Shown here piece after piece: positions 26,784 through 51,303 of a DNA stretch of 64,000 nt. Origin of the DNA: Rhodospirillales bacterium BBD 1991-14 (GTDB lineage Bacteria; Pseudomonadota; Alphaproteobacteria; Kiloniellales; Kiloniellaceae); the NCBI GenBank assembly GCA_001657395.1, contig LYSY01000003.1, forward strand, positions 248,001 through 312,000. The letters run 5' to 3'. The position numbers and the translations under genes are program-made. Position 1 is the first letter of the stretch; every line of letters begins with the position of its first letter. Under the pieces are notes generated by a model that ran no database searches, was not told the DNA's origin, and saw nothing but the letters and a program-made list of their open reading frames with translations.

Positions 26784-27230
26784 GTGTCTGAGACTCCCAC
26801 GACTACTCCCGCAAAGCCCGACCCCGTCGATGTCTCTATAGGTTCCCGGCTGCGGCTCCGCCGCTTGGCCCTTGGCCTCAGCCAGAGCAGCCTCGCAAAC
26901 GCCCTAGGCATCACCTTCCAACAGATCCAGAAGTACGAACGCGGCACCAATCGCATCGTTGCCAGCCGTCTGTACCGCCTGTCCCAGGTTCTTCAAGTTC
27001 CGGTTCAGTATTTCTTCCAGGACCTCTCGGCGAGAGAGGCTCCGGAGCAGTCCCTCGCAAACGGTCAGTCCGATGTCGAGTCACCGGAACGTGTGTCGGA
27101 CCTGATGACGCAGCGTGATATGCTTCGCCTCGTTCAAGCCTACAGCAGGATAGACGATGCCACGGTGCGGCGGCAGATCTACGCGTTGGTCAAGACCATC
27201 GGCGAGCATCGCTGCGATCCGCCCTGCTGA
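26784..27230 (+). CDS. XRE-family regulator with C-terminal helical domain
   Basis: 148 residues. An HTH_XRE domain (IGSRLRLRRLALGLSQSSLANALGITFQQIQKYERGTNRIVASRLYRLSQVL, about 19-70) is followed by VPVQYFFQDL and a C-terminal helical part (TQRDMLRLVQAYSRIDDATVRRQIYALVKTIGE). This architecture is common in alphaproteobacteria and resembles a second gene in the window at 47534-47986. GTG 26784 has GAGA upstream and is the first start before the domain. The 3' end overlaps the nuclease-like gene by about 74 bases. Confidence 0.9.
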   Translation: MSETPTTTPAKPDPVDVSIGSRLRLRRLALGLSQSSLANALGITFQQIQKYERGTNRIVASRLYRLSQVLQVPVQYFFQDLSAREAPEQSLANGQSDVESPERVSDLMTQRDMLRLVQAYSRIDDATVRRQIYALVKTIGEHRCDPPC

Positions 27231-40923: not shown

Positions 40924-40988
40924 TAGAGCGGATTCACATAGTCAGACGCAAACACCAAAGTGTTTCCGTCTGAGCAGGATCCGCTCTA
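40924..40988. repeat. Long imperfect inverted repeat, element 2
   Basis: Both ends read TAGAGCGGAT inward, and inner arms pair at TCAGACG...AAACAC. The terminal CTA at 40986-40988 is the stop codon of the acyl-CoA ligase on the minus strand, so the element may also serve as its terminator. Thirteen bases separate it from element 1. Confidence 0.75.
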
Positions 40989-42524
40989 GCGGAGCAGGTG
41001 GCGGGCGACCTTGCCGGTCGGGGTCAGCGGCAGACTCGCCTGAAACTGAACCAGGCCGGGGCACTTGCCGTCGGGCAGCGCCCGGGCCAGCCACCCGAGC
41101 AGATCGCCGCCGCTCAGGCGGCAGCCCTCCTTCAGCACGACGAAGGTCTTCGCTTCCTGGCCCAGAATCGCGTCGGGGACGCCGACGACGGCGGCGTCGC
41201 AGACCGCGGGATGACCCTTCAGCACCGTTTCCACCTCGGCCGGGTAGATATGCTCCTCGCCGCGCAGGATCTTGTCGTCGACGCGCCCCAGGACGTCGAG
41301 CCGGCCGAAACCGTCGAAGCGGCCGATATCCCCGCTGTGCAGCCAGCCGTCTTTCAGACGTGCGTGGGTCGTGTCCGGCATGTTGAGGTAGCCCTTCATC
41401 ACGCCGGGGCCGCGCACCAGGATCTCGCCATGCTCTTCGGGTCCCAGCGCCCTGCCTGCCGCATCCGCCACGATGGCTTCGACACCGGGGACCACCTTGC
41501 CGACGGTGGTTGCCCGCGGCAGCGCCATGTCGCCGCCCCAGGCCACGATCGAGGTTGCCTCGGTAAGACCGTAGCCGGGCACGAGGGCGAGGCCGAAGCG
41601 GGCGCGGAAGGCCGCGAGGAGATCGTCCTGCAGCGGCGCGCCACCCGTTGCACAGAGACGCAATGTCCTGCGCACCGCCGCCGTGTTTACCGCGTCGGCG
41701 CGGTCCAGAAGGTAACGGTAGTAGATCGGCATGTGCACGAAGTAGGTCACGGCCTCCTCGACGATGAGGCCCCAGATCAGACCGGGGTCGAAGCGTTCCA
41801 CCAGCACCATGGTTTCGCCGTTGAGCACCGCCAGGTTCAGGCCGCAGATCTGGCCCATGACATGAAACAAGGGCGTCGATACCAGCCGCACCGCCGTCGC
41901 TTCCGGTGCGGCCAGGGCGCGGTTGATCCGCACCATGGCCGTGAGGTTCGACTGCGTAAGCTCGACGCCTTTGGGCCGGCCGGTCGAGCCGGAGGTATAG
42001 AGGATCACGGCCGTCTCGTCGGCCGCATAGCTCTGCGTTGCGCAGCGGTCAGGCTGCCCCGCCATCAGATCGGCGAGCGCCGGATAGCCTGCCACTGCCG
42101 AGGCTCCATCCGTCCGCGCCGGAATGATCCAGACCTTGCTGCAGAGCGGCGCCGCTTCGGCGGCCGGAAGGGCTTCGTCGGCATAGGCCCGGTCGCCACA
42201 GCCTTCGAAGCAGAGCAGCGCCTCTGCTCCGGAGTCCTCAAGCTGGAACAGGATGTCCCGCTGCCGGAGCGTCGTGCTGAGGACGACGGCGACCGCGCCG
42301 ATTTTGAGGATGCCGTAGTAGGCAGCCAGAAAGCCGGGCCTGTTGTTGCAGGCAAGCGCAATGCGGCTGCCGCGCCCCAGGCCCTGGGCCCGCAGACCGT
42401 TGGCGACCCGGTTGGTCTCCTTGAGGATCTGCGCGTAGCTGTAGCGCCTGCCGTCGTGGACCACTGCGCTCGCCGACGGCATGCGGCCGGCGGTGGCATC
42501 GAGAAAGGCGGCAACGTTCAACAT
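40986..42524 (-). CDS. AMP-forming acyl-CoA ligase
   Basis: 512 residues of the ANL superfamily; activates a carboxylic acid with ATP and transfers it to CoA. Seen are the P-loop YTSGSTGRPKGVELT (176-190), GYGLTEATS (318-326), the adenylate-binding HSGDIGRFDGFGRLDVLGRVDDKI (396-419) and the C-terminal catalytic Lys505 in TPTGKVARHLL. The acid (fatty or aromatic) cannot be read from sequence. It is the last gene of the minus-strand run luxR-luxI-orf-P450-MFS-ligase, 73 bases after the MFS gene across a 16-bp triple repeat. Confidence 0.92.
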   Translation of the reverse strand: MLNVAAFLDATAGRMPSASAVVHDGRRYSYAQILKETNRVANGLRAQGLGRGSRIALACNNRPGFLAAYYGILKIGAVAVVLSTTLRQRDILFQLEDSGAEALLCFEGCGDRAYADEALPAAEAAPLCSKVWIIPARTDGASAVAGYPALADLMAGQPDRCATQSYAADETAVILYTSGSTGRPKGVELTQSNLTAMVRINRALAAPEATAVRLVSTPLFHVMGQICGLNLAVLNGETMVLVERFDPGLIWGLIVEEAVTYFVHMPIYYRYLLDRADAVNTAAVRRTLRLCATGGAPLQDDLLAAFRARFGLALVPGYGLTEATSIVAWGGDMALPRATTVGKVVPGVEAIVADAAGRALGPEEHGEILVRGPGVMKGYLNMPDTTHARLKDGWLHSGDIGRFDGFGRLDVLGRVDDKILRGEEHIYPAEVETVLKGHPAVCDAAVVGVPDAILGQEAKTFVVLKEGCRLSGGDLLGWLARALPDGKCPGLVQFQASLPLTPTGKVARHLLR

Positions 42525-42561
42525 GGGCTCTCTCCCAAGACAGATCTCTGTTGAGACGGGT

Positions 42562-42608
42562 TCTCCTAAGGCGGGGCTCTCCTAAGGCAGGGCTTTCCTA
42601 AGGCAGGG
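42562..42608. repeat. 16-bp tandem repeat, three copies
   Basis: TCCTAAGGC recurs at 42564, 42580 and 42596, a period of 16 bases with GC-rich filler. The third copy contains the MFS stop codon (CTA at 42598-42600). Confidence 0.9.
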
Positions 42609-43800
42609 ATGCCTGTCCCTGACGGGCGCGCACGCGCGGCCGGTAGAGCAGGATCAGGGCCGCCAGAGCGACGAGACAGAGCGCGGCACCGGAGAGGTGC
42701 GGCCAATGGGTCCCCAGACTGCCGAGGGCGAAGCCACCCCAGATCGGGCCGACGATGCGTGCCATGCTGAGGACCGCGTGGTTGACGCCCATCACCGTCC
42801 CCTGAACAGAGGCCGGCGCCGCCTTGGACAGGAGCGCCTGCAGGCAGGACAAGCCCGTCGCGATGCCGGCGCCCAGCAGCATCATCGCAACGGCGACCGC
42901 AGCATCGCCCGGCCAGAAGACGAAAAGCAGCATGCCCGCGACCATGGCGGCGGAGGAGGCGGCGGCAACCGCCTCCTCGCCGATGCGGCGGCAGAGAAGC
43001 GGGATCAGCACCCAAAGGCTGAACAGCGCCGCCCCCCCTGCGCACATGAAGCCCAGGGCAACATCGGATGCACGCCAGGCCAGAACGCGCTCTGACCACA
43101 GCCCCAGGGTGGCTTCCATCGAGGCGTAGGCGAAGGCCAGAACCGCCATGATCACGACGGGCCCGAGCAGCAGGGGCGCGAGGAACAGGCTGACCGGCAT
43201 CCTGAGATAACCCGCCCGCGGACCCGCTGCTGTAGCGGCGGCCTCGCCCGGCACCGGCGGACGCACCTCCCGCAGCAGGACGACTGCCAGAACAACGGCC
43301 AGAACGGCAAAGCCGGCAGCACCCAGGGCACCGGCCTGATAGTCGTCGCCTTCGGGGCCGAGCAGCCAGCCGCGGCTGAGCAGCGGCCCCACAATGAAGG
43401 CGACCGCGAAGGCGGAGTTCACGTTGGCCATGCCGTTCACCCGGCGCTTCAGAGATGTACTGTCCGCCATCAGGGCCTGGATCACGGGCACCGCGGCATT
43501 GCTGACACCGGCCAGGGCGCGCGCCGCAAAGAGCATCAGCAGCGAGTCCGCATAGGCCATCATCAGGTAGGCGAAGGGTGCAGTCGCCAGCGCCAGGCAG
43601 ATTACGCCGCGCCGGCCGAAGCGGTCGCTCAGGCGCCCGAAAAAGGGCGCCAGCAACAGGATCATGGCGGTGTCGGTGACCAGGATCATCGACACCTGAA
43701 CCGGGCTGGCGCCGAGCGCCAGGGCCTGAAAGGGCAACGCCGGATAGACGATGCCAAGCCCGATCAGATAGACCAGAGTGACCACGATGGGTGCAGGCAT
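42598..43800 (-). CDS. MFS transporter, drug/metabolite-exporter type
   Basis: 400 residues with 12 predicted membrane helices. The loop 2-3 motif FFGRLSDRFGRRGVICL (near 55-70) is the MFS motif A of drug:proton antiporters, and GxxxGPLLSRG near 140 fits motif C. Its start lies four bases after the P450 stop, so the two are almost certainly co-transcribed. In this context it may export the product made by the P450 and ligase. Confidence 0.92.
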   Translation of the reverse strand: MPAPIVVTLVYLIGLGIVYPALPFQALALGASPVQVSMILVTDTAMILLLAPFFGRLSDRFGRRGVICLALATAPFAYLMMAYADSLLMLFAARALAGVSNAAVPVIQALMADSTSLKRRVNGMANVNSAFAVAFIVGPLLSRGWLLGPEGDDYQAGALGAAGFAVLAVVLAVVLLREVRPPVPGEAAATAAGPRAGYLRMPVSLFLAPLLLGPVVIMAVLAFAYASMEATLGLWSERVLAWRASDVALGFMCAGGAALFSLWVLIPLLCRRIGEEAVAAASSAAMVAGMLLFVFWPGDAAVAVAMMLLGAGIATGLSCLQALLSKAAPASVQGTVMGVNHAVLSMARIVGPIWGGFALGSLGTHWPHLSGAALCLVALAALILLYRPRVRARQGQASLP

Positions 43801-43804
43801 GGCC

Positions 43805-45217
43805 TTACGCCGCCTTTGCCACCAGCCGCATCTTGAGGCCCTGCGGCCTGAGCGTGATCATCGGCTCCGGCTTGACCTCCTGCCCCGGCAGGAGATGCAG
43901 ATCGAAACGCCGGGCCACGGCGGCGATTGCGATGAGCGATTCGAGAACGGCAAAGCGCTCGCCGAGACAGCTGCGCGGCCCGTCGCTGAAGGGGAAATAA
44001 GCGAAACGGCGGCGCGGGTCGCCGGTCTCGGGATCGAAGCGCGCCGGGTCGAAGCCTTCCGGATTGTCCCAAAGCTCCGGGCGACGGTGCACGGCGAACA
44101 TGTTCAACATGACATTCGTCCCGGCCGCGACCGGCAGACCGGCGATCTCGTCGCCGTCGACGGCCGTGCGCGAGAAGGTCCAAAGCGGCGGGTAAAGACG
44201 CAGGGCTTCGTCAAAGACGCAGCGCGTGTAGGTCAGGGCCGACAGCTCGGAGAATTCTGGCGCACGCCCCGCCGGCAGGCTCTCCGCCTCGGCCTGGACC
44301 CGCCGCAGGGATTCGGGATGAAGCGACAGCAGGTACCAGCACCACGCCAGGGCGTTGGCCGTGGTCTCGTGGCCGGCCAGGATCATCGAGAGAATCTGGT
44401 CGCGCAGCCGCCCGTCCGTGCTCTCGCCCTGCGCAGCCAGAAGCATGTCCAGCAGGTCGGCTTCGCCGCTATCTTCCCTGTCCTTCGCATCGGCAGATGC
44501 GGCGCGCCGCTCGGCAATCATGCCATAGACGAAGCGGTCGAGCGTGGCGAGCGCCTCGGCCACCGCCCGGTTGCGCCGCGTCGGCAACCAGCGCGGCATC
44601 TGGAGGGGTGACCAGATGCGCCGCTCCGCATCGCGCAGCACCAGGGTCATGGCGTGAAAGACCTCTTCGTGTTCACCGTCCAGCCGGACGGAGAACAAGG
44701 TGCGCATGAGAATGTCCAAGGTCAGCCGCATCATCTCTGGCACCACGTCCAGCACGCCGCCGCGGGCCGCCGGCACCTGCCAGCGCCGCACCATGTCGTC
44801 GACGGCATCCTGCATGGCCGCCGTCATGCGACGCAGCTGGCAGCCCTGAAAACTGCGCAAGGCGGTCTTGCGCTGCCCCAGCCAATCGTCACCCTCGGCC
44901 AGGAAGATGCCTTCGCCCAAGACTGGCCTCATCATGTCGTAGAAGCGGCTCTTGACGTAGTTCGGGCGGTTGTCCTGGAGGACATGGCGGATCATCGCCG
45001 GATCGTTGAGCATCAAAACCCGGTCTGGCCCCAGGTGCAGCCAGACGGCCCCGCCGTGATCGGCCGCAACCCGCGTGAAGAAGCGCAAGGGGTCGCGCCG
45101 CAGTGCGGGCGCGAGACCGAGCAGCGGCAAGCCCTTCAAAGCCGGCACGGCGGCCTGGCGGCCGGGCTGACGGTCGGGGCTTCCAAATCCTTCGCAACTG
45201 TCGACAGCGAGACTCAT
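43805..45217 (-). CDS. Cytochrome P450
   Basis: 470-residue soluble-type P450 monooxygenase. I-helix oxygen-activation motif AGHETTA (281-287); ExxR in K helix Glu337-x-x-Arg340; the PERF-like ARFDPE; and the heme loop FPFSDGPRSCLGERFA with Cys417 as thiolate ligand. The overall pattern is nearer the CYP4/CYP102-like fatty-acid hydroxylases than the short class I CYPs, which is an impression only. No ferredoxin or reductase gene is adjacent. It follows luxI and the 86-residue gene on the same strand. Confidence 0.95.
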   Translation of the reverse strand: MSLAVDSCEGFGSPDRQPGRQAAVPALKGLPLLGLAPALRRDPLRFFTRVAADHGGAVWLHLGPDRVLMLNDPAMIRHVLQDNRPNYVKSRFYDMMRPVLGEGIFLAEGDDWLGQRKTALRSFQGCQLRRMTAAMQDAVDDMVRRWQVPAARGGVLDVVPEMMRLTLDILMRTLFSVRLDGEHEEVFHAMTLVLRDAERRIWSPLQMPRWLPTRRNRAVAEALATLDRFVYGMIAERRAASADAKDREDSGEADLLDMLLAAQGESTDGRLRDQILSMILAGHETTANALAWCWYLLSLHPESLRRVQAEAESLPAGRAPEFSELSALTYTRCVFDEALRLYPPLWTFSRTAVDGDEIAGLPVAAGTNVMLNMFAVHRRPELWDNPEGFDPARFDPETGDPRRRFAYFPFSDGPRSCLGERFAVLESLIAIAAVARRFDLHLLPGQEVKPEPMITLRPQGLKMRLVAKAA

Positions 45218-45286
45218 GATGCTGATCTCCGTTGGGTCCGAAACGGCCTCCTCAGGCCGGCCGCAGGCGAGCGGTCGCGTTTCCGT

Positions 45287-45303
45287 GGCGTGTCGGACAC
45301 GCC
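45287..45303. promoter_or_regulatory. 17-bp perfect palindrome upstream of the P450 gene
   Basis: GGCGTGTCGGACACGCC has 8-bp arms around one base, 70-86 bases before the P450 start. It may be a regulator site or the hairpin that ends the luxI/orf transcript. It does not match the classical CTG-N10-CAG lux box. Confidence 0.4.
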
Positions 45304-45366
45304 GGATCGGAAGCGCCGCAGGCGCGACGCATTTGAAAACGATGTGCGCGGCTGGGTCTGGGCCGC

Positions 45367-45627
45367 TTAGTGGCGCTGCGTGGACGCGACGTCGGAAACG
45401 TCCGGCACTTCCTGCGCGTCCTTGCGCTCCACCTGCGCGACCGACTTCTCGGTCAGCGCAATGGAGTCTTCAACCGCTTCCGCAGCGACCCCGATCAGGT
45501 GCGCGGCAAAGGAAAGCCCGGTGCGCCTGGCTTCGATCCGCAGGTATTCCAGACAGCGTTTGATTGCCTCTGCGTCCTGAAGAGGATCGCAGAGCCTCAG
45601 CTCGATAGGCATTTCACTCTTTTTCAT
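45367..45627 (-). CDS. Unrecognised 86-residue protein between luxI and the P450
   Basis: Starts MKKSEMPIELRLCDPLQDAEAIKRCLEYL, a likely amphipathic helix, continues RIEARRTGLSFAAHLIGVAAEAVEDSIAL and ends with an acidic, disordered tail. GGAG lies 7 bases before ATG 45627, and the gene is placed 82 bases after the luxI stop, so it is probably real. No family was recognised. A small regulator or a luxI-associated helper are both possible. Confidence 0.7.
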   Translation of the reverse strand: MKKSEMPIELRLCDPLQDAEAIKRCLEYLRIEARRTGLSFAAHLIGVAAEAVEDSIALTEKSVAQVERKDAQEVPDVSDVASTQRH

Positions 45628-45709
45628 TTCATACTCCAGAAGGTCTCTGACCGGTGTTTCTCTCGTTGCGGCTGGCGCTGCCAGGGATCTGGCAGGGATC
45701 AGGCAGCGA

Positions 45710-46330
45710 TCAGGCGACCGCCGGCTGTTCCAGGGCGAAGGCATTACGGATGACCGAGCCGCGAATGCCGGCGACCGCACGCAGGCTCGCCAGCGTTGCG
45801 TGGGTCATGTCGAAGCGGCCGGCGAAGGCGATCTCCTTACCGATGCGCATGCCCTTCGATTGCCGGCGCGGCGGGCAACCGAGCCGAGGCAGGAGGCGCT
45901 CCATCCGTGCGTCGTAAACGGTAATGAGCTCGCGGATACCCATCGCCAGGCAGGTCTCGGTGACCGCACAGAGCAGTTCACTGCTTGTCCGCCCGCGGGT
46001 GCTGCGCCCCTCCACGGCAAAGCGGCTGCCCTCCCAGACCAGCGGGTGGTAGGGCGCCTTCTCGTCTTCCAGCAGCTGCGCGAAGACATCGCGCAGCATG
46101 TAGGGGCCGGTGGTCGGCAGAAACCGCCAGCTTCCGGCGAGCGCACCGCTCTGGTCTCTGGCCAGCAGGTAGGTCGGATAAAGCGCATCGAAATCGTCGC
46201 GCTCTTCTCCGTCATCAGTGGAGACTTCCCAGCCCAGCCGCTGTTTGAACACGCGGAAGCGCTGTTGAAACATCTCCCTCAGGTCGTTGGCATAGGCGCT
46301 ATAGAGATCGGGTGTCACAACGTCTATCAC
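45710..46330 (-). CDS. LuxI-family acyl-homoserine-lactone synthase
   Basis: 206 residues; makes an acyl-homoserine lactone from SAM and an acyl donor. The conserved LuxI residues are present: Arg24 and Phe28 (RFRVFKQRLGW), Trp34, Asp45 and Asp48 (DDFD), Arg69 (WRFLPTTGPYMLRDVF), and Glu100 and Arg103 (WEGSRFAVE). The acyl chain cannot be read from the sequence. It lies 211 bases downstream of the luxR gene on the same strand. An 18-bp palindrome sits 33-50 bases before its start. Confidence 0.95.
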   Translation of the reverse strand: MIDVVTPDLYSAYANDLREMFQQRFRVFKQRLGWEVSTDDGEERDDFDALYPTYLLARDQSGALAGSWRFLPTTGPYMLRDVFAQLLEDEKAPYHPLVWEGSRFAVEGRSTRGRTSSELLCAVTETCLAMGIRELITVYDARMERLLPRLGCPPRRQSKGMRIGKEIAFAGRFDMTHATLASLRAVAGIRGSVIRNAFALEQPAVA

Positions 46331-46362
46331 GGCACGGTTCCCCCCAGTTTCGGTCCCCGGCA

Positions 46363-46380
46363 GGCCCTGCTCTCAGGGCC
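46363..46380. promoter_or_regulatory. 18-bp palindrome just upstream of luxI
   Basis: GGCCCTGCTCTCAGGGCC: 7-bp perfect arms with a 4-base centre, centred about 41 bases before the luxI ATG. Length and place suit a LuxR-family operator, although the spacing inside (CTG-N4-CAG) differs from the usual lux box. A leader hairpin is the alternative. Confidence 0.4.
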
Positions 46381-46423
46381 CCGAATGCGCCGTGATTTCA
46401 GCGCGCCATGCGCCAATCCGCAG

Positions 46424-46441
46424 CCCCCCAGAAATGGGGGG
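46424..46441 (-). terminator. C6/G6 hairpin between luxR and luxI
   Basis: CCCCCC and GGGGGG around the loop AGAAAT, about 100 bases after the luxR stop on the minus strand. No T run follows. It may separate luxR and luxI transcripts. Confidence 0.35.
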
Positions 46442-46515
46442 GGAGCGAGCGGGAGGATGCCGGCGAAACGGACAGACTGGTCCCGCCGGACGCAGGTTTT
46501 ATGATTTAAATCAGC

Positions 46516-46548
46516 GGATTAGGGGGTGGATTAGGGGCGGATTAGGGG
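46516..46548. repeat. 11-12-bp tandem repeat, three copies
   Basis: GGATTAGGGG occurs at 46516, 46528 and 46539. The third copy holds the luxR stop codon (TTA at 46542-46544) and encodes its C-terminus. Confidence 0.85.
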
Positions 46549-47315
46549 AGGATGTGGCCGCCCATCACGGCTTTGACGACGGCATGGTGCTTTGAGAAGA
46601 CACCCAGCTTGCGCGTGCCGTTCTTCAGGTGGAAAAGCACCGTCTCTTCGGAGATCGAGAGGATCTGGCCGACCTCCCAGGCGGTTTTGCCCCGCGCCGT
46701 CCAGAGAAGACAGTCGCGCTCACGGTCGGTCAGGCGCACGCGCTGTTCTTCCGGCCCGTCCTGAGAGAGACGGAGAAAGGCCTCGTGGACCTGGGCGGCA
46801 ATCCACACGAGATCGTGCCGGGACTGCCGGTAGGTCGCCTCAAAGGCCCTCTCGCCCTGGCCCGCCACCGTGATATTGAGGGTGGACAGCCCGCTTTCTG
46901 GCCCGTGGATCGGCACTGTCGCACCGGGGCCGAGGCCGAAGTCCCCCGCCTCGTCCAGCAGTCTGCGCTGACCGCTGCTCAGGTCGCCGCGCCCGCTGAG
47001 GGTCGGCCAGTCAAAGGGCAGCGTGGTGCCGGTTGCGGCATGGAAGGTCGGATCGATGTCGCCATAGCCCCGCGCCAGGTAGTGCCCGATCCAGGGGTCC
47101 GGAAAGGTTGCGAGGAACTCGTGCACCACACGGCCGTTGGGCGACTCCGCGGGGACAAAGGAGCGGATGCGCTTACCCAGTGGCGGGCGCACATGCACGT
47201 AGGAATAGGCGGCGAAACCAAGCGCCTCGATCAGACTCTGAAGCAGGCAGCCGATCTCATCAGTCGTCTTGGCCCTGCTGAGGGCATCGACCTGATCGAT
47301 CGGCAGGCCTGTCAT
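46542..47315 (-). CDS. LuxR-family quorum-sensing regulator
   Basis: 257 residues. The N-terminal autoinducer-binding domain keeps the signal-pocket residues Trp75, Tyr79, Asp88-Pro89, Trp103 and Gly131 (DPWIGHYLARGYGDIDP...FDW...GPG). The C-terminal GerE helix-turn-helix is VRLTDRERDCLLWTARGKTAWEVGQILSISEETVLFHLKNGTRKLGV (193-238). ATG 47315 starts at the domain; upstream in-frame sequence is unlike the family. It precedes luxI on the same strand, so it is most likely the cognate receptor. Confidence 0.95.
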   Translation of the reverse strand: MTGLPIDQVDALSRAKTTDEIGCLLQSLIEALGFAAYSYVHVRPPLGKRIRSFVPAESPNGRVVHEFLATFPDPWIGHYLARGYGDIDPTFHAATGTTLPFDWPTLSGRGDLSSGQRRLLDEAGDFGLGPGATVPIHGPESGLSTLNITVAGQGERAFEATYRQSRHDLVWIAAQVHEAFLRLSQDGPEEQRVRLTDRERDCLLWTARGKTAWEVGQILSISEETVLFHLKNGTRKLGVFSKHHAVVKAVMGGHILP

Positions 47316-47533: not shown

Positions 47534-47986
47534 TCAGCCTTCGGACGTTCTGCCCAAGGTCTTCAGCAAGGATAGCACCTCGGCACGCACCTTGGAGTCC
47601 GGAATCCGGTAGTAGGAGCTGATCAGCTGCAGAGTTTCTCTCTGATTGGTGAAGTCCGGATCAGAGGAATGGATAGCACCAGCGCCGCCGGCAGCCGCGT
47701 CGGCACCGTTTGCCGCCGCCTCGCCGTCCGATTCCACACCCTCAAAGAAATAGGTGACCGGCACGCTTAGGATGCGAGACAGCTCATAGAGCTTGCTCGC
47801 GGAGATACGGTTGGCACCGCGCTCGTACTTCTGAATCTGCTGGAACGTCAGGCCGAGCGCATTGGCCAGCTTCTCTTGTGAATACCCCAAGAAGACCCGA
47901 CGAAGCCTCACGCGGCCGCCGACATGAACGTCGACGGGATGCGCCTGCCTAGCCTTCCCGACTGTCGTTTCGTGAGCAAGCATCAT
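47534..47986 (-). CDS. XRE-family regulator, paralogue of the gene at 26784
   Basis: 150 residues: an HTH_XRE domain (VGGRVRLRRVFLGYSQEKLANALGLTFQQIQKYERGANRISASKLYELSRIL), then VPVTYFFEGV, an Ala/Gly-rich acidic linker (about 85-108) and a helical end (NQRETLQLISSYYRIPDSKVRAEVLSLLKTLG). The architecture and the FQQIQKYERGxNRI core match the 26784 gene. It has its own promoter (48025-48054) and lies 218 bases upstream of luxR on the same strand. A link to quorum control is possible but unproven. Confidence 0.9.
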   Translation of the reverse strand: MMLAHETTVGKARQAHPVDVHVGGRVRLRRVFLGYSQEKLANALGLTFQQIQKYERGANRISASKLYELSRILSVPVTYFFEGVESDGEAAANGADAAAGGAGAIHSSDPDFTNQRETLQLISSYYRIPDSKVRAEVLSLLKTLGRTSEG

Positions 47987-48553: not shown

Positions 48554-50167
48554 TTAGAACGGCCAGCGGAGCACGAATCGGGTTCCGCGATCCAAGCCGT
48601 CGGATTCGATGGTCAGATCGCCCCCGATCGAACGGGCCGCCGCCCGCGCGACGGAGAGCCCCAGGCCGGCACCGGAGGTCCCCAGGACACGGTCCGCCCG
48701 CCAGTAGGGTTCGAACACGGCCTCCCGGTCCTCGCGGCGAATACCCGGCCCGAAATCGCGGACCGATATCTCATAGCGGCCCTGCCCCTTGGCAAGGTCG
48801 ACCTCGACCGCCTTCCCCTCCGGCGCGTACTTCACGGCGTTCTGCAGCAGGTTGGACAAGACCGTATGCAGCATCACCTGAGCCCCGCTTTCGATCGGCG
48901 CACCGATCCTGTCCGATAGCCTTAGCTCTTGGTCCGCCTTCAGGGCCGTCGAAACCTCGCGCCAGACCGCCGAACAGAGATGGGCAAGGTCGATGGATTG
49001 GACCTTGCCCTCACCGTCGACCTTGCCGATCAGCAGGACGTCATCAACCAGCCCCGCCAAGGCGTCGACACCACGGCGAATGGTCTCGATTTCCTCGCGC
49101 ATTTCGGCCCGGTCCATGTGCTCGCCGTAGCGGTCCAGGGCATCGGCGGCGGCGCCGACCGCCTGCAACGGTGTCCGCAGTTCATGCGAAACCATCGAGA
49201 CGAAGCGCGACTTGTCTTCACGGCGCTGGCGTTCATGGTCCAGCGACACCGAGAGGCGGCCTTCGTGGGAAACCACCGCGTCGACCCGGCGCACGGCCAG
49301 AACCAGAAGAAATGCCAGGATCAGCAGGGCGCCAAAAAGCAAGGGCGCAACGCTCCAGAGCAGGTCATCGCCCGGGCGCTGGTTCCGCCAGAAGATACAG
49401 CCGATCGCTTGGCCGTCGACCCCCATGATCTCCAGATCCAGGTATCCTTCCGCCGCCGGCCCTTCGGCGAAGCCGGCATCCTCCAAGAAACTCTCCAGGC
49501 TTGGCGAGTGGAAGAAGTCCTGATCGAGCGGACGCATGAAGACCAGCAGGGAGGCTGATTCTGCACCGGGCGGGTCGCCGACCTCAGCGAAGGGTGAGAT
49601 GATGCTGGCGCCCACCATGTGCAGGCGCCCCTCGACGGCAACGAAGCTGACCGGCGGCACTGCCTCTATACTGCGGCCCTGGCGCGCTGCGGCCAGCAAG
49701 GATCGAACCGTGCCGGGCAGACGCTCGAACAGCCCGACCTCAGAGGGTGCCCCCTCGACAAAGGCGATTTTCGTCTGGTCTTCGGAGCCCAACACCCAGA
49801 TGCCGGTGACTCCAAAGGCCTCCAGCAGGTAGTGCCCCAGTTCTTCCCGCGCCCAGCGCTCGTCCAGACCGACATCGAGCACATAGATCACCTCGTCCCA
49901 CCAGGCATAGTCCACCACCAGGTCGCGAAAAGCCTCACGCCGGGCATCCAGGCTGGCCGAGACCAGCGACTCCTGGGCCCGCGCCTGGCTTTCGTTCAAC
50001 TCGCGCGCGCCCCAATAGAGAGCAAAGGCGACCGCCACCAGCGTCAGCGCCACCAGCAGCAGGATCGGCAACAGCAGCCCGCGGCGGCGCCGAGCGGCGC
50101 GGCGGCGGGTTCTGGTCAGCCGCGACGGTGACGCCCCCTGCTGGGCAATGGAAGAAAGCCCTGTCAA
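48554..50167 (-). CDS. CHASE4-type membrane sensor histidine kinase
   Basis: 537 residues. An Arg-rich N-terminus precedes TM1 (31-51). A periplasmic sensor of about 220 residues has the CHASE4 look (VVDYAWWDEVIYVLDVGLDERWAREELG). TM2 spans 272-292. HisKA has His328 in MVSHELRTPLQAV, and the ATPase has LSNLLQNAVKYAPEG, DFGPGIRREDREAVFEPYW and GAGLGLSVARAAARSIGG. There is no HAMP domain and no adjacent response regulator. The only upstream start is TTG 50167, so the exact N-terminus is uncertain. Ligand unknown. Confidence 0.92.
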   Translation of the reverse strand: MTGLSSIAQQGASPSRLTRTRRRAARRRRGLLLPILLLVALTLVAVAFALYWGARELNESQARAQESLVSASLDARREAFRDLVVDYAWWDEVIYVLDVGLDERWAREELGHYLLEAFGVTGIWVLGSEDQTKIAFVEGAPSEVGLFERLPGTVRSLLAAARQGRSIEAVPPVSFVAVEGRLHMVGASIISPFAEVGDPPGAESASLLVFMRPLDQDFFHSPSLESFLEDAGFAEGPAAEGYLDLEIMGVDGQAIGCIFWRNQRPGDDLLWSVAPLLFGALLILAFLLVLAVRRVDAVVSHEGRLSVSLDHERQRREDKSRFVSMVSHELRTPLQAVGAAADALDRYGEHMDRAEMREEIETIRRGVDALAGLVDDVLLIGKVDGEGKVQSIDLAHLCSAVWREVSTALKADQELRLSDRIGAPIESGAQVMLHTVLSNLLQNAVKYAPEGKAVEVDLAKGQGRYEISVRDFGPGIRREDREAVFEPYWRADRVLGTSGAGLGLSVARAAARSIGGDLTIESDGLDRGTRFVLRWPF

Positions 50168-50736: not shown

Positions 50737-51303
50737 ATGAAGCCGAAGGCGAGCCTCGAGTCCTCGGAACGACTGGGTCTCCTGCTCTCGCGGTGCAGCC
50801 TGGGCGACCAGTCCGCCTTTGCGGACCTCTATGATGCCACTTCTGCGAAACTCTTCGGCATCGCCTTTCGTATATTGAAACGTGAGGCCTGGGCGGAGGA
50901 GGCTCTGCAGGAGGCCTACATGAAGATCTGGCGGTATGCCGACAGCTACAATCCAGGCCGGGGGCGGCCGATGACCTGGATGATCAACGTTGTTCGCAAC
51001 CAATCGCTGGACCTTTTGCGCAAGGCTGACTATCGCGCCGCTGAAGAGGAATGGAGTCCTGAAAAGGACCAGCGAATGAGCGGCGAGAATCCAGCGGCCC
51101 AGGCCGAGACGAGCCAGGAGATGCAGCGCGTGCTGGGCTGTCTCTCCGGCCTGACGGACGAACAGCGGGACTGCATCCTGCTGTCGTACCACCAGGGCTA
51201 TACGCCCACCGAGGTGGCGAGCCGGATTGGACGCCCGGTCGGCACCGTGAAAACCTGGATCCGCCGGGGGCTGATCAAGGTCAGGGAGTGTTTGGATCAA
51301 TGA
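50737..51303 (+). CDS. ECF-family RNA polymerase sigma factor
   Basis: 188 residues. Region 2 (AFADLYDATSAKLFGIAFRILKREAWAEEALQEAYMKIWRYADSYNPGRGRPMTWMINVVRNQSLDLLRK) and region 4 (LSGLTDEQRDCILLSYHQGYTPTEVASRIGRPVGTVKTWIRRGLIKVRECL) are complete. It resembles the SigK/RpoE-like group paired with RskA-type anti-sigma factors. The stop overlaps the ATG of the anti-sigma gene (ATGA), so production is coupled. Signal and regulon unknown. Confidence 0.95.
   Translation: MKPKASLESSERLGLLLSRCSLGDQSAFADLYDATSAKLFGIAFRILKREAWAEEALQEAYMKIWRYADSYNPGRGRPMTWMINVVRNQSLDLLRKADYRAAEEEWSPEKDQRMSGENPAAQAETSQEMQRVLGCLSGLTDEQRDCILLSYHQGYTPTEVASRIGRPVGTVKTWIRRGLIKVRECLDQ

Follow-up and report, generated by a model that had tools for sequence, protein, structure and literature searches.

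A quorum-sensing locus lies in a stretch of 64,000 nucleotides (hereafter the window) from Rhodospirillales bacterium BBD 1991-14 (contig LYSY01000003.1, positions 248,001 to 312,000 of the forward strand). Six genes, all on the minus strand, encode in order a LuxR receptor, a LuxI synthase, an 86-residue protein, a cytochrome P450, a transporter of the major facilitator superfamily (MFS), and an AMP-forming acyl/aryl-CoA ligase. The deeply conserved core is luxR-luxI-small open reading frame (ORF)-P450, not the whole six-gene run, and the ligase and MFS genes are accessory. The best reading of the locus, to which we give about an even chance, is an N-acyl-homoserine lactone (AHL) circuit in which the P450 would tailor the signal. 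The genome is placed in Pelagibius (Kiloniellaceae), and the top named record in a scan with the P450 is a Pelagibius metagenome-assembled genome whose P450 is 96% identical.

The synthase gene luxI (45710..46330, GTG start; PF00765, Autoind_synth, 131 bits) is the only PF00765 match in the whole genome. Its product has the conserved residues of AHL synthases, and the adjoining luxR (46542..47315) encodes a protein with an AHL-binding domain (PF03472, Autoind_bind, 90 bits) and a GerE domain (PF00196, 57 bits). The best solved relatives of the two proteins are LasI and LasR, respectively. The 86-residue gene (45367..45627) has no match in Pfam or NCBIfam and is followed by the P450 gene (43805..45217; PF00067, 293 bits). 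The MFS gene (42598..43800; PF07690, MFS_1, 157 bits) has its ATG 4 bases from the P450 stop (43801-43804), and the ligase gene (40986..42524; PF00501, 287 bits; PF13193, 60 bits) ends the run. ORF coordinates and Pfam domains agree with the first-pass annotation, which had placed the six genes on one strand with 4 bases between P450 and MFS, and had left the 86-residue gene unrecognised.

The luxR-luxI spacer contains a candidate LuxR box, the 18-base dyad CCCCCCATTTCTGGGGGG (46424..46441, minus strand). The pattern CCCCCCA(T/G)TTCTGGGGGG is exact in six of the eight Pelagibius luxR-luxI spacers and has one mismatch in those of genomes G055 and G053. Only one exact copy of its 16-base core is present in the 5.5 Mb genome, and two-mismatch hits there are no more frequent than for a reversed control. 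In the window the pattern gives two matches, both at the same place, a count reached by 12 of 100 shuffles; it is not itself statistically striking, but its conservation is. No shared dyad that could serve as a second operator was found before the P450 gene. A promoter and terminator scan was uninformative, with one promoter-like site (0.8 in shuffles) and two terminator-like sites (5.1 in shuffles), one of which is inside the P450 gene and none between genes of the run. The simplest reading would be a single unit under LuxR control that extends from luxI through the ligase gene.

Conservation was followed in an order sample of 61 genomes, the own genome included, in which 20 places were mapped by tblastn. 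LuxI is found in 20 of these genomes and the 86-residue protein in 15. The order from a helix-turn-helix (HTH_3) gene upstream of luxR through to the ligase is whole in 7/7 other Pelagibius members. The flanking genes are conserved in Pelagibius too, so gene order within the genus alone could be plain synteny. In G040, which belongs to the same family and another genus, the run is kept as far as both contig ends. In G034, from another family, luxR-luxI-P450-MFS-ligase is kept at 35-53% identity between different flanks, with an ORF of 70 residues between luxI and P450, and G018 retains luxR-luxI-P450 without MFS and ligase. Because the arrangement is kept in 7/7 genus members and, with different flanks, beyond the genus, it is more than chance; the conserved gene order that the first-pass annotation had proposed to look for in related genomes is thus present. 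The module is flanked by genes for a CHASE4 histidine kinase (48554-50167, minus strand) and a sigma-70 family factor (50737-51303, plus strand), and the same neighbourhood is seen in 7/7 other genus members.

The pairing of luxI with P450 extends across the Alphaproteobacteria. In a class sample of 385 genomes drawn evenly, PF00765 occurs in 59 (77 hits) and the window P450, at E <= 1e-80, in 16 (18 hits). luxI directly adjoins seven of the 18 P450 hits (G000, G242:C33, G263, G364, G375, G194, G294) and is not beside ten; in G154 the P450 and luxI stand at contig ends, where adjacency is undecidable. From the LuxI side, 68 of the 77 hits were examined, including 60 further LuxI loci, and nine weak hits were left out (G289, G039, G374, G269, two in G205, and the second hits of G388, G213, and G082). 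At four of the 60 loci (L204, L215, L227, L243) no more than about 500 bases follow luxI before the contig stops. In these 60 loci, a tblastn search (E 1e-6) with six P450 queries gave only four P450 hits, all directly beside luxI: one upstream of it in G207, and others in G102, G276, and G328. These four P450s are only 27-36% identical to the queries. A P450 lies directly beside luxI in 11 of the 59 luxI-bearing genomes (12 with G154), which carry many family codes.

A scan of named genomes, with the P450 alignment against the contigs of one genome per species (84,980 species), gave 202 relatives, of which the best 80 were used. luxI lies directly upstream of the P450 gene in 17 of these 80, at a gap of 71-500 bases (L095-L105, L107, L109, L156, L157, L168, L172), and in none of the remaining 63, six of which are cut within 1.5 kb upstream. 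Sixteen of the 17 linked records are labelled as alphaproteobacterial and one only as Proteobacteria; they include Pelagibius marinus, Ferruginivarius sediminum, Rhodospirillaceae bacterium SYSU D60014, and one record labelled Azospirillum brasilense. Isolates recorded with the locus are P. marinus NBU2595 and F. sediminum WD2A32. Nine of the 17 loci (L095-L100, L103, L105, L168) duplicate places already sampled and were dropped from the trees. The F. sediminum locus (L109 6166-10427) has two tandem luxR genes before luxI and a second small-protein match after P450. In two other loci (L101 7830-8723, L102 7945-8832) luxR and luxI are separated by an opposite-strand gene for a phytanoyl-CoA dioxygenase (PhyH), another possible acyl-oxidising enzyme. 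A plasmid collection was also searched with the ligase and with two P450s (for the P450s, the 25 best of 111 and of 197 records); the one plasmid hit opened, from Methylobacterium aquaticum, has no LuxI within 5 kb. The bacteria with the luxI-small helical protein-P450 run described here are marine.

The hallmarks of the P450 are intact, namely the heme Cys loop FSDGPRSCLG (C417), the ExxR motif (E337/R340), and the I-helix AGHETT. In a quick-method tree of 111 P450 sequences (29 linked to luxI, one contig-edge, 81 unlinked), the linked label changes twice against a shuffled mean of 25.7. The window P450 falls in a clade of 19 rows (SH-aLRT 99), all luxI-linked except the contig-edge G154; L249 and L261 are long-branched. 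The P450 might still stand beside luxI through inherited synteny or chance, with no functional tie, given the conserved flanks in Pelagibius and the fact that the unlinked P450s of the tree are mostly from other phyla, although ten unlinked alphaproteobacterial rows also fall outside the window clade. However, luxR-luxI-P450 stays together in G034 and other families while the flanks differ, and the sole four P450 hits in the 60 class loci adjoin luxI. We regard this explanation, already disfavoured, as barely credible.

The closest fold to a structure model of the P450 (pLDDT 85) is CYP184A1 (33% identity), of which one entry contains oleic acid. CYP97C1/CYP97A3, CYP4B1, and BM3 follow, and one BM3 mutant entry holds N-decanoyl-homoserine lactone. 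Albaflavenone and pentalenene oxygenases, which are terpene P450s, also score by sequence, far under the cut-offs. CYP184A1 (7wzl, 7wzm) and CYP102A1/BM3 share the fold of the window P450 and have fatty-acyl ligands in solved entries, but they differ from it in sequence (identities of about 33% and 25%), BM3 is fused to its reductase, and we know of no luxI link for either. A long acyl chain as substrate would fit the modelled fold.

Signal turnover is a different use of the same chemistry, in which the P450 would oxidise the AHL to an inactive form and limit or reset the circuit. CYP102A1 oxidises AHLs (Chowdhary 2007, as cited in PMC5479921), the BM3 mutant with its lactone ligand is in line with this, and with a P450 inside the luxI unit the circuit would have negative feedback. 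It would, however, be wasteful for one unit both to make and to destroy the signal. No sequence feature separates turnover from tailoring, and we consider turnover distinctly improbable.

The acyl donor of LuxI was approached with a quick-method tree of 93 sequences (30 P450-linked including G154, 59 unlinked, and 4 solved). The acyl-CoA enzyme BjaI and 6wns fall in a set of 26 rows (SH-aLRT 99) that holds no P450-linked LuxI. All 30 P450-linked LuxIs are on the LasI/BmaI1 side of the tree, together with 17 unlinked ones, and those of L058, L082, and L104 group with LasI (support 88; L104 is 46% identical), a long-chain AHL synthase. Residues R24, F28, W34, D45, D48, R69, F83, E100, and R103 are kept in 30/30 P450-linked LuxIs; these nine positions and the LasI T144 site are catalytic or line the acyl pocket. 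At the T144 place the linked LuxIs have Y in 18, T in nine, and S in three (11, 7, and 3 of 21 once near copies are removed), while Y, T, or S occurs in 19 of the 59 unlinked LuxIs. LuxI and P450 tree distances are correlated (Spearman 0.84 for 29 pairs, 0.82 for 20 at one per genus, and 0.74 for 15), a correlation that 0 of 2000 permutations matched.

These results bear on a proposal of the first-pass annotation, that the ligase makes an unusual acyl-CoA which LuxI uses directly. A ligase is present in the run, and acyl-CoA-dependent LuxIs such as BjaI and others are described in the available text of PMC10470506. The proposal is nevertheless unsupported, because LuxI clusters outside the acyl-CoA set and the ligase, the last gene of the run, rarely follows P450 beyond Pelagibius. 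It appears very improbable.

Outside Pelagibius a ligase follows P450 in 4 of 21 distinct linked places: G040, G034, L080 (= L103), and L101, the last two with ligases 42-44% identical to that of the window. After P450, an MFS gene like the window's was found in Pelagibius, G040, and G034 and nowhere else. No ligase was seen beside P450 in L058, L084-L086, L102, L104, L107, L109, L156, L157, L172, L240, L244, or L249, the check covering 1.2-1.7 kb downstream in L102, L156, and L172; L081, L082, and L261 end too early to judge. The nearest recognised gene after P450 encodes a class-III aminotransferase in L104, a DEAD-box helicase in L107, a cation ATPase in L109, a MacB/FtsX protein in L157, an S9 peptidase in L172, and an epimerase in L058. 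Three further ORFs downstream of P450 have no Pfam match. Neighbouring genes overlap along luxI-small ORF-P450 in two loci, by 4 bases at both junctions in L157 and by 1 and 8 bases in L107. The first-pass annotation had treated the six genes as one AHL-linked module, which is real and conserved in relatives, but at depth only the luxR-luxI-small ORF-P450 part persists. The nearest NCBIfam models to the MFS protein are Tet efflux pumps; at 116 bits, far under the cut-off of 475, the match was taken as superfamily kinship and not as the mark of a resistance gene.

The accessory genes bear on the main rival reading, a quorum-controlled metabolite, which was the other proposal of the first-pass annotation. 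P450, ligase, and MFS would make a small oxidised acyl or aryl compound other than an AHL and export it, and luxI would be only the switch. An enzyme, a ligase, and an exporter form one run, in which 4 bases part the P450 gene from the MFS gene, and this run is kept genus-wide and in the other family of G034, so that within Pelagibius several biosynthetic genes remain together behind a LuxR switch. P450-ligase pairs without luxI also exist in cyanobacterial loci. In contrast, linked loci other than those of Pelagibius, G040, and G034 keep no more than a ligase with the P450. Among the 21 places outside Pelagibius the MFS gene follows in two, whereas luxI is always present (by definition of the set). 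The nearest recognised genes downstream of P450 are unrelated between loci, and the cyanobacterial ligases share only 27-32% identity with the ligases of luxI loci. We consider this explanation unlikely. That luxI and P450 stay together without ligase or MFS, with differing downstream genes, points to the signal itself as the P450 target. The cyanobacterial pair, a P450 gene directly followed by an AMP-forming ligase gene, is kept in five records (L117, L119, L135, L142, L167).

The 86-residue protein is modelled by AlphaFold2 as a two-helix hairpin (helices 15-35 and 39-72; pLDDT ~98 over residues 21-50). Of the 22 linked loci examined, 17 have a small ORF of like shape between luxI and P450, and none of that shape was found in L156, L172, L244, L249, and L261. 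A search of 11,503 ORFs with a profile built from 17 small ORFs gave 13 hits (E < 1) in the 60 class luxI loci. Twelve of them are on the luxI strand and no more than 250 bases downstream of the gene, in a zone that 292 ORFs touch; the remaining hit, in L226, is elsewhere in its locus. Six of the 13 have E > 0.03 and are individually weak, and placement is what counts. Because no P450 was seen in the 12 loci with a downstream hit, G154 excepted, the family looks like a general luxI companion that is not bound to P450. A clear match (45 bits) stands right after luxI without an adjoining P450 in L206 (7542-7751).

A possible partner lies directly upstream of luxR, where a gene for an HTH_3 regulator of PraR type (47534..47986, minus strand; PF01381, 46 bits) is present in 7/7 other genus members. 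It is 53% identical to a PraR-type gene elsewhere in the genome (C15:430136-430522), which precedes a MetK-like (S-adenosylmethionine synthetase) ORF named by eye. PraR-type genes also occur near the luxI-P450 pair in L050, L107, L157, L084-L086, and L240. In Rhizobium, CinS, the product of cinIS, inactivates the repressor PraR (PMC4149787). In Methylobacterium, MmaP is encoded downstream of mmaI and binds PraR, and an S-adenosylmethionine synthetase gene comes after praR (PMC10790750). The locus shares with cinR-cinI-cinS/PraR of Rhizobium leguminosarum and mmaI-mmaP/PraR of Methylobacterium fujisawaense a small gene directly downstream of luxI and a PraR-type HTH protein, and the genome has a PraR ortholog before S-adenosylmethionine synthetase. 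In contrast to the cin and mma descriptions, as far as their available text goes (PMC4149787, PMC10790750), a PraR-type gene is also beside luxR, and a P450 is present. By position, the 86-residue protein is a candidate PraR antagonist of CinS/MmaP type. The HTH_3 protein beside luxR has six matches in the genome, the query included, and a further PraR-type HTH_3 gene of the window (26784-27230, plus strand) is 50% identical to it.

The functional steps of the circuit are inferred from gene content, order and conservation, the LuxI clade, the fold classes, and the conserved dyad. LuxI would make an AHL, most likely from acyl-ACP, and LuxR would sense it and then activate the luxI unit via the dyad at 46424-46441. 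By analogy with CinS and MmaP, the two-helix protein may bind a PraR-like regulator, either the one beside luxR or the one before metK or both, and could in this way pass the quorum state to a second regulon. The presence of the luxI-P450 arrangement in many related bacteria suggests that the substrate of the P450 is the signal or the fatty-acid part of it. The enzyme would act on the acyl chain of the AHL or of the acyl donor and would yield a signal that carries a hydroxyl or some other oxidation. Also in favour of signal tailoring are the overlapping genes of L157 and L107, the congruent LuxI and P450 trees, the nearest P450 folds (CYP184A1, CYP97, CYP4B1, and BM3), the three linked LuxIs that group with LasI, the polyhydroxylated AHLs of Rhodobacteraceae strain MOLA 401, and the precedent of a crotonase gene beside a luxI in Mesorhizobium japonicum. 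Pelagibius and a few relatives probably acquired MFS and ligase afterwards, and the two may serve to export the oxidised chain and to activate or recycle it.

Several observations weigh against an AHL circuit with a P450-tailored signal. Among the LuxI hits examined, no adjacent P450 is seen in 48 of the 59 luxI-bearing genomes (47 if G154, which is split over contigs, counts as having one), so the pair is one variant among many. In Pelagibius, MFS and ligase follow P450, which is what a separate product pathway would call for. Identity between the window P450 and the fatty-acid P450s of the fold search is only 24-33%, and that fold group also includes enzymes that oxidise terpenes and carotenoids. 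The LasI T144 place offers weak evidence, because a hydroxyl residue there is shared by 10 of the 17 unlinked LuxIs on the LasI/BmaI1 side (Y in one of them). The congruent LuxI and P450 trees could reflect joint descent. Foldseek gave 152 hits for the 86-residue protein, none at E <= 0.001 and the best at 1.3, so its fold names no relative. Finally, small-protein matches occur in G041, G031-G033, G035, and G060 with no luxI or P450 seen in the stretches examined; two such places (L052 and L055) have a PraR-type gene.

No published description of a luxI-P450 operon was met in full-text searches whose coverage takes in only a minority of subscription papers. A text search of a paper on luxR-linked biosynthetic gene clusters (PMC5872303) finds no P450, and in the available part of PMC4886583 a P450 appears only as a primer name. 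The little-described AHL-linked module of the first-pass annotation is real and conserved in relatives, and no account of it in print was met in these searches. The nearest proven analogue is from Mesorhizobium japonicum MAFF 303099, in which a crotonase gene beside I1 is needed for its AHL signal (PMC10470506). According to the accessible text of that paper, the R1-I1-crotonase circuit likewise has luxR-luxI followed by a same-strand enzyme gene, but its third gene belongs to the crotonase superfamily and its LuxI to the acyl-CoA group. Here, the enzyme is a P450, LuxI is outside that group, and a small gene lies between. The nearest prior idea concerns Rhodobacteraceae strain MOLA 401, which makes AHLs with two or three hydroxyls and whose authors guess at a P450 (PMC5479921); in the text available, that P450 is noted as present in the genome, with no stated link to luxI.

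More broadly, and with somewhat less than an even chance of being right, the locus may represent a widespread alphaproteobacterial AHL circuit, in which the unit's P450 would finish the signal, giving oxidised AHLs, and a two-helix anti-repressor would tie quorum to a PraR-type regulon. AHL diversity is mostly ascribed to the acyl donor chosen by LuxI. With a P450 tied to luxI, oxidative tailoring would be a further origin of this diversity, and could explain the polyhydroxylated AHLs reported in one marine strain.

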